From Halostagnicola larsenii XH-48 (GTDB lineage Archaea > Halobacteriota > Halobacteria > Halobacteriales > Natrialbaceae): a DNA stretch of 64,000 nucleotides. Shown one piece after another: positions 57,706 to 59,673 of this stretch; within the stretch, counting starts at the first letter, position 1, and each line of letters begins with the position of its first letter. Both the position numbers and the translations under genes were made by a program. The stretch covers positions 1,488,001 to 1,552,000 of the forward strand of contig NZ_CP007055.1 in NCBI RefSeq assembly GCF_000517625.1. Direction: 5' to 3'. The notes below the pieces were generated by a model that did not search any database, was not told the origin of the DNA, and saw nothing but the letters and a program-made list of their open reading frames with translations.

Positions 57706-58587
57706 GTGAGCGACGACGCGCCGACGGGCGTCCAACGAACGGAAGATGAACGCATGGTTTCACTAGTCGAGTTATTCGTACGGATTGTCGGTGACGACCC
57801 GGTGATTCAGGGGCTCGTCGGCGGAATCGTTATCGCGATGTTGAACCTGTTCGGAGCGTCGCTGGTGCTCGTCTGGCGGAACCCGTCGGACCGGGCACTC
57901 GACGGTGCGCTCGGATTCGCGGCCGGTGTGATGCTTGCCGCGGCGTTCACCAGCCTTATCATCCCGGGAATCGAGCAGTACTCCGGAGGAGACCCGATTC
58001 CCACGCTCGTGGGCGTTGCGCTCGGCGCGATCTTTCTCGATCGAGCGGACGTGCTCGTCCCACACGCACACTATCTGCTGACCGGTCGCAAACGAGCGGA
58101 TCAGGCTAACCCGGGCACGTCGCTTCCCCTCGATAACGAACGGGTGGTGCCCGTCGTCCTGTTTATCCTGGCGATCACGCTCCACAACATGCCGGAAGGG
58201 TTGGCCGTGGGTGTCGGCTTCGGCTCCGGCGATGTCGAAAGCGCGATTCCGCTCATGCTCGCCATCGGCATCCAGAACATTCCCGAAGGGCTCGCCGTCT
58301 CCGTAGCCGCGATCAACGCCGGGCTCGACCGACGCTTTTACGCGGTCTTCGCCGGGGTGCGCTCGGGCGTTGTCGAAATCCCGCTCGCCGTGGTCGGCGC
58401 GCTGGCGGTGAGCGCCGCAGAACCGCTGCTTCCCTACGCGATGGGATTCGCCGCGGGAGCAATGCTCTTCGTGATCTCCGACGAAATCATCCCCGAAACC
58501 CACACGCGCGGATACGAACGGATCGCTACCCTCGGGTTGATGGCCGGCGTGATCGTGATGCTCTACCTCGACGTTAGTTTGGGATGA
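57706..58587 (+). CDS. ZIP family metal transporter
   Basis: 293 residues with eight predicted membrane spans, typical ZIP layout. The metal path motifs are TLHNMPEGLAVG and GIQNIPEGLAVS in spans IV and V. A His-containing HAHYLLTGRKRADQ loop follows span III. The start is GTG at 57706 (VSDDAPTG) or ATG at 57754; the GTG has a CTATTT string ~20 bases upstream but this is weak. Likely imports or exports zinc, iron or manganese. Confidence 0.88.
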   Translation: MSDDAPTGVQRTEDERMVSLVELFVRIVGDDPVIQGLVGGIVIAMLNLFGASLVLVWRNPSDRALDGALGFAAGVMLAAAFTSLIIPGIEQYSGGDPIPTLVGVALGAIFLDRADVLVPHAHYLLTGRKRADQANPGTSLPLDNERVVPVVLFILAITLHNMPEGLAVGVGFGSGDVESAIPLMLAIGIQNIPEGLAVSVAAINAGLDRRFYAVFAGVRSGVVEIPLAVVGALAVSAAEPLLPYAMGFAAGAMLFVISDEIIPETHTRGYERIATLGLMAGVIVMLYLDVSLG

Positions 58588-58652: not shown

Positions 58653-58991
58653 TTACTCGATCGACTCCCCCTCGACCGGACAGCCACAGGGATAGGCGGT
58701 GCGGTGGGTCGGAACGAGTTGGATCACTGCCGTCACTTCGCGTCCACATCGGGGGCACTCGGGCGGGGGCGACGGCGGGTCGTCGGTCACCCAGACGCCG
58801 TGGCTTGTCACGGCGAGCGAGACGCCCCGTACCTCGAGGCGAACTTCGATCGCACTGTCGGCGGAGTCGAGCAGTCGAGCGAGTGCTTCGGGGTCGAATT
58901 CCGTGCCGAGCTGGTAGGAATCTCGAGGGACCCCTTCTTTCTCGAGCGTGCGGACGATCTCGAGGACCAGACTGTTCGTTGGCGGGGTCAT
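58653..58991 (-). CDS. HalOD1-like output domain protein with zinc knuckle
   Basis: 112 residues. The N-terminal ~75 residues resemble the haloarchaeal output domain HalOD1 (LVLEIVRTLEKEGV, FDPEALARLLDS, VRLEVRGVSLAVTSHGVWVTD). The C-terminal part has a CxxC (CPRC) and a C-x-C (CGC) suited to bind one zinc. Such small proteins are thought to act in signal output; partner unknown. It stands alone. Confidence 0.75.
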   Translation of the reverse strand: MTPPTNSLVLEIVRTLEKEGVPRDSYQLGTEFDPEALARLLDSADSAIEVRLEVRGVSLAVTSHGVWVTDDPPSPPPECPRCGREVTAVIQLVPTHRTAYPCGCPVEGESIE

Positions 58992-59322
58992 GGCTCGCGC
59001 TCACCCTCGAGTGCGTGTGCCGTGGCTGGTGGTGATTGAGCAGCAGGTGGTGCGTTCACAGCTGCTGGCGGTAGTCGACTTCGATTCGTCTGTCGGACGG
59101 GATGTTTAAGCCCGCGGAGAAGATATCCAATCATGGCAACCGATCCATTGAGCGGTCGGAAGCCACGTCTCGGGTGCCCTAATCACCCGGGGCATTTCAA
59201 TACAAAACGCCCCCTTCAGCGGAGTGTGTGGCTTCCATTCGAGCCAACGTCCTGTAGTGTCATATAATTACTGTTTTCGACCGGGAATAATGTCGTGCCG
59301 GAAACCGACGTGTTCTCGATTG
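58992..59322. other. Intergenic region with a structured candidate RNA
   Basis: 331 bases. A TTTAAG box at 59105-59110 could start a transcript near 59133 that covers the inverted-repeat element at 59158-59236. A 44-codon ORF (59133-59267) exists in the same place, but its codon third positions are not GC-biased. The rest shows nothing. Confidence 0.55.
59158..59236 (+). ncRNA. Candidate structured non-coding RNA
   Basis: Closing stem GGAAGCCAC (59158-59166) with GTGGCTTCC (59228-59236), perfect over nine pairs. Inside are CGGGTG/CACCCG (59171-59189) and a GGGC/GCCC pair (59190-59212). TGCCC/GGGCA is an alternative to the first inner stem. TTTAAG lies about 25 bases before the likely start at 59133. 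No known RNA family is recognised. Confidence 0.4.
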
Positions 59323-59673
59323 CTATCGCTCGCGTTCAGTTGCGGATTCCGCGATACCGACTGAGAGTGAAAATAGCATGAGGCCGATCCCCGTTATACC
59401 GACGGCGATAGAAACCTCCAACAGTAACGAAACCGAGAATGCGCTGACCCCTCCGATAGTGGCTCCACGGATTCGGTCGGAGAAATCCTTCTTTCCCATT
59501 CGAAGGCTTCGAGACCACTCGGACGTGTGGCTCAGCACGAACGCGGACGTCGTCGTGTAAAGCGGGAATACCGCCAAAAATAGCAACCCTTCGGCTCCTG
59601 CGACCCACACTGTGAGTGCGGTAACGCTCAGTCCGACTACGATCGAGATAACGTAGCGGATAACGCGATTCAT
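59323..59673 (-). CDS. Small four-span membrane protein
   Basis: 116 residues with about four hydrophobic segments (~6-24, 28-48, 70-92 and 92-110) and one polar loop (SHTSEWSRSLRMGKKDFSDRIRG). Unusual among neighbours for Ser/Thr-rich spans and lower GC. ATG at 59673 (MNRVIRYVISI) is preferred to the frame from 59736. Function unknown. Confidence 0.7.
   Translation of the reverse strand: MNRVIRYVISIVVGLSVTALTVWVAGAEGLLFLAVFPLYTTTSAFVLSHTSEWSRSLRMGKKDFSDRIRGATIGGVSAFSVSLLLEVSIAVGITGIGLMLFSLSVGIAESATERER

Follow-up and report, generated by a model that had tools for sequence, protein, structure and literature searches.

In the CopA/CopT-tap-repA system of the IncFII plasmids, a structured leader is combined with a coupled short reading frame and with an antisense RNA that arises from inside the leader. 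Haloarchaeal transcripts are mostly leaderless (PMC3986360), so that a large leader family supported by covariation would not be expected in these organisms. Coupling of translation by ATGA or TGATG overlaps has been measured in Haloferax volcanii (PMC6728339), and zinc-finger micro-proteins with C(P)XCG motifs have been described in Haloferax (PMC11241148). HRAMP, an array-less haloarchaeal RAMP system and CRISPR derivative, is the subject of PMC8730458 and PMC12669027, the only ones that by title concern it among the papers listed for its name; the accessible portions of these two descriptions mention no leader RNA. A literature search on Natrialbaceae non-coding RNA returned nothing, and the papers listed on haloarchaeal riboswitches, small zinc-finger proteins and antisense leaders with zinc fingers do not, in their titles and the beginnings of their abstracts, describe the element reported here.

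The window, a 64,000-nt stretch of Halostagnicola larsenii XH-48 (NZ_CP007055.1, positions 1,488,001 to 1,552,000 of the forward strand), carries near its right end an element that we regard, with a probability of roughly 60% and judging from sequence comparisons, as the structured and conserved 5' leader of mRNAs for small zinc-finger proteins, transcribed from the minus strand and acting as a translational on/off switch. Its parts in window coordinates are as follows.

59262-59267, minus strand: putative TATA-like box of the leader promoter (TTATAT on the minus strand), with transcription expected to start at about 59239
59228-59236, minus strand: T arm of helix P2, the first arm of the leader RNA, pairing 9/9 with 59158-59166
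59189-59214 (limits approximate), minus strand: P4 hairpin, GGGGGCGUUU...GAAAUGCCCC, from minus-strand folds and alignments
59171-59189, minus strand: P3 hairpin, with stem 59171-59176 / 59184-59189 and variable 7-nt loop 59177-59183
59158-59166, minus strand: M arm, which forms P2 with the T arm or P0 with the F arm next to the start codon
59132-59141, minus strand: F arm including the start codon (ATG at 59134-59132 on the minus strand)
58988-59134, minus strand: leader reading frame (uORF) of 48 codons, its stop overlapping the next start (ATGA; gene start 58991)
58653-58991, minus strand: coupled HalOD1/zinc-ribbon gene, 112 aa, with a weak HalOD1-like part and a C-terminal zinc ribbon CPRCG..CGC
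59098-59114, no strand assigned: dyad CGGG/CCCG around TTTAAG, which may form an mRNA hairpin (P5), belong to a promoter, or both
59105-59110, plus strand: TTTAAG, a putative TATA box for an antisense RNA (positions -28 to -23 from 59133)
59133-59165, plus strand: P0+P1, the hairpin at the 5' end of the putative antisense RNA, from plus-type wobbles and plus fold stability

What the first-pass annotation had observed in this stretch is confirmed. The 9-bp stem and the first of the hairpins it encloses are P2 and P3; the second enclosed hairpin and the mutually exclusive alternative pairing can be recognised both in the letters themselves and in predicted folds, the TTTAAG box lies 23-28 nt before the plus-RNA hairpin, and the 44-codon ORF is present on the plus strand at 59133-59267. 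Covariation, which it had proposed to look for, is strong among the copies, and a covariance model finds a family, as detailed below. The annotation had placed the element downstream of a HalOD1-like gene; this gene runs on the minus strand, from 58991 to 58653, so that the element is upstream (5') of it. Its interpretation of the element is partly supported and is taken up below.

Folding energy alone does not distinguish the element from chance (z = -1.43, with equal or greater stability in 20 of 200 shuffles); it is the recurrence with covariation that makes it more than a chance fold. With blastn, ten strong places were found in the H. larsenii genome (the window's own included, 81-100% identity) together with two weak ones, and matches were found in 47 of the 149 genomes searched, H. 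larsenii included, only the best few matches per genome being scored. A covariance model built from 51 copies detects 15 copies in this genome and reaches 45 of 194 genomes of the class at E <= 0.001; locus L009, which repeats L001, was excluded from the copy set. Built from 46 copies, of which 20 are distant, a broader model reaches 63 of 194 sampled Halobacteria genomes at E <= 1e-5, with at least 19 copies in several single genomes, and 7 of 148 genomes of a phylum sample at E <= 1e-4, all within the same order; a more permissive search added only partial and opposite-strand matches, which were set aside. Weak matches in other families keep the order of the parts with changed stems. An exact pattern scan of named genomes yielded 104 stretches, and the 80 of these that were listed fall in genera that, by name, we take to be Natrialbaceae, Halostagnicola among them. 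Copies were also found in 12 plasmid records, from Natrinema, Halomontanus, Halopiger and Natribaculum, none with an annotated feature under the matching stretch, and phage records gave no match. With every copy set tied to a single kind of gene, a mobile repeat would be a less likely explanation. Against Rfam 15, no family exceeded its gathering threshold at the element in the window, where a single tRNA was found elsewhere, and a search of 59000-59400 at E up to 10 gave two matches far below threshold. Nothing was found at the element in loci L127-L130, L136 and L021, RF03135 (L4-Archaeoglobi) matching elsewhere in L136.

The substitutions among the copies indicate that the RNA structure is real. 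In the alignment of 51 copies, 11 of 21 pairs show double changes, and the 44 double-change cells compare with 17.7 in shuffled alignments, a count of 44 being reached by none of 500 shuffles; the fraction of paired cells is 91% in register and no more than 50% once the partners are shifted by 1-3 columns. In a second alignment of 46 rows that includes distant members, and that was fitted to the first model and so is biased towards the structure of that model, both partners change in 16 of 21 pairs, with 132 cells as opposed to 39.6 when shuffled. Double changes in P2 rise accordingly from 5 of its 9 pairs in the first alignment to 7 in the second. The P3 stem is nearly invariant in the Natrialbaceae (515 of 516 cells Watson-Crick over 86 copies), and three of its six pairs covary once distant members are included. 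The best co-varying pair outside the helices consists of the first and last nucleotides of the P3 loop, in non-Watson-Crick combinations, and mutual information gave no clear additional helix. Read on the minus strand, the loop carries U at position 2 in 44 of 54 seven-nucleotide loops of the Natrialbaceae, with purines near its end; the operon-type set in the loop analysis counts some loci twice. All 15 loops of the H. larsenii genome differ from one another. This diversity was considered as proof of kissing-loop specificity, a case weakened by the U-N-R pattern that the loops share. The F-M pairing is also kept with changes, its register having been chosen to maximise pairs; the T-M and F-M pairings are thus both conserved, but the wobbles in F-M point to a plus-strand RNA.

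The plus-strand CATGG at which the 44-codon ORF appears to start is CCATG on the minus strand, and its C, A, T and G are invariant in the 51 aligned copies. In the Natrialbaceae, this minus-strand ATG is the first codon of a uORF, 28-79 codons long, in 74 of 79 copies, the frame continuing into the zinc motif in three of the 79. In 66 of 72 copies the uORF stop falls between -14 and +4 relative to the closest start of the zinc gene, with an ATGA overlap in 44; in a control restricted to ATG starts this holds for 62 of 68 copies in the true frame, compared with 3 and 0 of 68 when either of the two other frames is used. A conserved uORF-encoded protein is not supported: in the 57 copies outside a group of 22 close same-genus ones, codons 2-19 show no amino-acid constraint (nonsynonymous over synonymous changes at 1.46 times expectation), and within those 22 there are too few changes to judge by (4 synonymous, 6 not). 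Because the uORF is unconstrained as protein outside the close copies, the strong conservation around TTTAAG/TTTATA lies at the DNA or RNA level, where it may reflect a promoter of a plus-strand RNA, the mRNA hairpin P5, or both. The hexamer in the 57 copies is TTTATA in 31, TTTATG in 14 and TTTTTG in 10, TTTAAG being the consensus of the 22 close copies. At the other end of the leader, the TATA-like box appears in other genera as a conserved CTTATATCTACTG. Its distance from the P2 arm, measured in 78 copies, is 24-25 nt in 65, and the remaining spacings were mostly mis-anchored by the search pattern.

The coupled gene of the window encodes a protein that scores 19.4 bits against Pfam HalOD1, below the cut-off of 26.3. 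Used as a query, this protein has a match beside all 22 close copies, reading away from the plus-strand RNA of the first-pass annotation, and beside 43 of 57 copies overall. The part shared with other genera is the zinc ribbon CPxCG..PCGC and not HalOD1; it was found at 63 of 79 distinct copies. Ten of the other 16 stand beside a second, CxxC..CxxC family, L011 has a HalOD1 match, L025 is cut by a contig end, and at L037, L053, L055 and L100 no zinc-type neighbour was found. Within the H. larsenii genome, 14 of the 15 RNA copies lie beside matches to the window protein (four of them weak and confined to the zinc part) and the fifteenth, at 2603985, lies beside the second CxxC..CxxC family; at least one good match to the protein, at 406911, has no RNA nearby. 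At L004, L039 and L040 (2098773, 1577304 and 2486590) the protein matches are in two pieces, two of them with an internal stop. A ZIP zinc transporter gene (57706-58587, plus strand) adjoins the HalOD1/zinc-ribbon gene in the window, probably by coincidence.

Outside the Natrialbaceae type, the distant copies L108, L109, L115 and L116 head an operon that encodes a CxxC protein and a 313-residue protein, the latter found in 52 of 194 genomes. AlphaFold modelling of the 313-residue protein gave a pTM of 0.71 and a mean pLDDT of 66.4 (a first model from four sequences only, with a pLDDT of 37.5, was unusable). This model returned 20 Foldseek matches at E <= 0.001, all of them by title CRISPR effector complexes, in which the matched chains are presumably Cas7 subunits; the best VIA-align match had Z 10.0 and an rmsd of 4.7 over 203 aligned residues. 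A PDB sequence-profile search with a 28-row alignment gave only chance matches. The model thus suggests a Cas7-like fold for the 313-residue protein, which would supply the operon-type copies with the Cas7 of HRAMP. Nucleases were found at one locus, L127, with Pfam HNH and PDDEXK_4 above cut-off and with HNH, PD-(D/E)XK and exonuclease-like genes following within 8 kb, and the operon-type loci fit the HRAMP description. As to the Cas5 homologue of HRAMP, a GGARNYGFG protein, which may be the second RAMP subunit, follows the Cas7-fold gene in L127 and L129 (the one from L129 has no Pfam match), as does a protein of ~300 residues without a Pfam match.

Of 30 Cas7-fold loci, a subset of a longer match list, 26 have the RNA immediately ahead of the operon, with the model match opposite to the operon strand; four of the 30 had trained the model, leaving 22 of 26 untrained loci that carry the RNA. 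No RNA match was found in L155, L160, L164 and L166, and a strict hand-made pattern found the RNA in only 2 of the 30. In 24 of the 25 operon-type copies inspected, the CxxC gene begins at the conserved AUG, L165 differing; L144, whose RNA is identical to that of L143, was left out of this count. By eye, these copies have no TATA box inside the element, and most have a TATA-like element past the T arm, e.g., GGAAAAGTTTATACC on the operon strand of L153. In some, such as L137 and L140, the right-hand promoter is surrounded by short repeats, some of them inverted and possibly an operator (by eye). Genome G255, of another family, has at least 19 copies of at least two subtypes; at the 11 loci read (L110, L117-L126) they precede genes for proteins of ~180-210 residues with a C..C..C.H motif, which resembles a degenerate SWIM zinc finger (the one protein tested had no Pfam match). 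In distant copy L114, the protein that begins at the start codon matches the SWIM zinc finger with 17.4 bits, slightly under the Pfam cut-off of 19.6. Small winged-helix-like genes lie ~160-220 nt past the RNA on the plus strand in L107, L111, L112, L113 and L114, two in tandem in L111; the protein from L107, the sole one of this set compared with Pfam, scored below cut-offs.

A G.U wobble on one strand is an A.C mismatch on the other, and wobbles in fixed columns of 86 copies number 1 plus-type to 36 minus-type in P2 and 70 plus-type to 10 minus-type in P1; in P0 without its outermost column pair they number 41 to 1 (Natrialbaceae). When pairing is left free and P2 may extend, the Natrialbaceae P2 count becomes 167 plus to 64 minus, opposite to the fixed-column result, an excess putatively attributed to added outer pairs. 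Under free pairing, the 26 operon-type copies give 21 plus to 49 minus for P2, 14 to 12 for P1, which is no bias, and 34 to 3 for P0, or 7 to 2 when P0 is restricted to positions 2-7, omitting positions 8-9 and the first position, which is fixed by the start codon. P4 shows no strand bias (50 to 65 and 15 to 12), the folding energies of the P2-P4 domain give no minus-strand preference (45 of 86), and the P0+P1 hairpin is more stable as a plus-strand fold in 68 of 86 copies. From these counts P2 is taken as a minus-strand helix and P1 as a plus-strand helix, the P1 assignment being the better supported. Since its wobbles assign the small start-codon hairpin to a plus RNA, an antisense RNA is probably produced as well from the copies of the Natrialbaceae. 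Once the start codon had been recognised, a reading that assigned every helix to a plus-strand RNA next to a divergent gene was abandoned; its "divergent" gene is the one now placed downstream of the leader. Of the plus-strand RNA gene proposed by the first-pass annotation, the P1 wobbles and the TTTAAG/TTTATA box speak in favor, and the P2 wobbles and the minus-strand start codon speak against; such an RNA may also exist, and would then be antisense to the leader.

A sense/antisense pair following the logic of CopA/CopT-tap-repA, in which the plus RNA would start at the complement of the start codon and block the uORF and its coupled gene, with the P3 loop as a paralogue-specific partner, is a possibility to which we would give a little less than even odds. 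It would account for the plus-type wobbles of P1 and P0, for the TATA-like hexamer at -28 to -23, for the coupling of the uORF to the zinc gene and for the 15 differing loops of a single genome. As a general mechanism it is contradicted by the operon-type copies, which by eye lack the TATA box at that place and whose P1 is unbiased; the loops, with their U-N-R tendency, are not free to vary, and the conserved dyad around the hexamer may instead be an mRNA hairpin, its wobbles numbering 32 minus-type to 9 plus-type, 27 of the 32 coming from a single pair (the pairs were counted in other copies, the window copy being read from sequence). In the operon-type copies a promoter can be seen for the minus RNA alone, which makes a translational switch in an mRNA leader the simplest reading. 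The plus-type wobbles of P0 and P1 in the Natrialbaceae, and of P0 in the operon-type copies as well, do not fit a stem around an mRNA start codon and count against it.

Cas7 proteins bind guide RNA, and the RNA could be a partner in an RNA-protein complex, serving as a guide or scaffold of HRAMP and elsewhere binding a zinc-finger protein. Its position before the Cas7-fold operons and the Cas7-like fold itself, with a Z of about 10, would agree with this; we nevertheless consider it unlikely, as the H. larsenii genome has 15 of the RNAs and no such Cas7 (no match to the 313-residue protein was found there), no spacer-like stretch was seen, and a start codon lies inside the element. An extension of the same idea, also improbable in our estimation, would make the leader the long-missing RNA of HRAMP, bound by the zinc-finger protein of the first gene, and the stand-alone Natrialbaceae copies RNA/zinc-finger modules escaped from or ancestral to HRAMP, with loop and antisense RNA of their own as an identity tag. 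Equally doubtful is a metabolite or metal riboswitch whose three-way junction binds a small ligand, for which zinc would suggest itself first, given that the genes under control encode zinc fingers of several families: mutually exclusive helices beside a start codon and several different CxxC-type motifs downstream would suit it, but in the loci read no transport or metabolic gene was seen immediately behind the leader, and paralogue-specific loops are unusual for a riboswitch. That the plus strand carries a gene for a small protein of 44 residues is very improbable. Its ATG does lie at a leaderless distance from TTTAAG, but in the alignment, judged by eye, indels shift the frame among copies, so that the conserved 44-residue frame that the first-pass annotation had named as the sign of a protein gene is missing; the product has no Pfam or NCBIfam match, and the changes follow base pairing. 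The annotation's preference for an RNA over a peptide is thereby upheld.

Under the leader-switch reading, minus-strand transcription would start at the right-hand TATA box and the leader would fold as a three-way junction, with P2 enclosing P3 and P4. Pairing of the M arm with the T arm (P2) would leave the start codon free, and pairing with the F arm (P0) would hold it in a stem. In the Natrialbaceae, control of the uORF would be passed to the overlapping zinc-finger gene by termination-reinitiation, and there is probably a further layer of control by a plus-strand antisense RNA that begins opposite the start codon. Sequence comparison itself establishes the structure, the place of the start codon, the geometry of the coupling and the association with zinc-finger genes, whereas the switching between the two pairings, the promoters, the antisense RNA and the trigger are inferred. 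As to the trigger, nearly all readable linked genes encode a likely zinc-binding protein, and a first guess is therefore that the encoded zinc-finger protein binds its own leader, with a ligand or the antisense RNA as alternatives; that the downstream zinc families are not all alike counts against simple autoregulation. As a relative of the element heads CRISPR-derived operons with no known RNA, the element is probably an unrecorded RNA switch.

Compared with the described systems, the family shares with the archaeal ribosomal-protein leaders in Rfam (e.g., RF03135) the position of a structured cis-regulatory leader before a gene, and differs from them as a separate RNA family, no Rfam family reaching threshold at the element. 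The linked proteins resemble the C(P)XCG micro-proteins of Haloferax in being small haloarchaeal proteins with CPxCG motifs, but the accessible part of that report mentions no leader RNA (PMC11241148). HRAMP is likewise described, in the portions available, as array-less and with no mention of a leader RNA, and the H. larsenii genome lacks such a Cas7; the likeness lies in the operon-type copies, which head operons with a Cas7-fold protein and nucleases. The family is of interest as one that is linked to zinc-finger genes and precedes an array-less CRISPR derivative whose RNA is, in the available accounts, an open question. From CopA/CopT-tap-repA the Natrialbaceae copies differ in governing zinc-finger genes in place of a replication gene and in having an antisense RNA that is so far proposed from sequence, and no sequence relation is claimed; they resemble it in the combination of a structured leader with a coupled leader reading frame, which the stop positions and the frame control place at the start of the zinc-finger gene.
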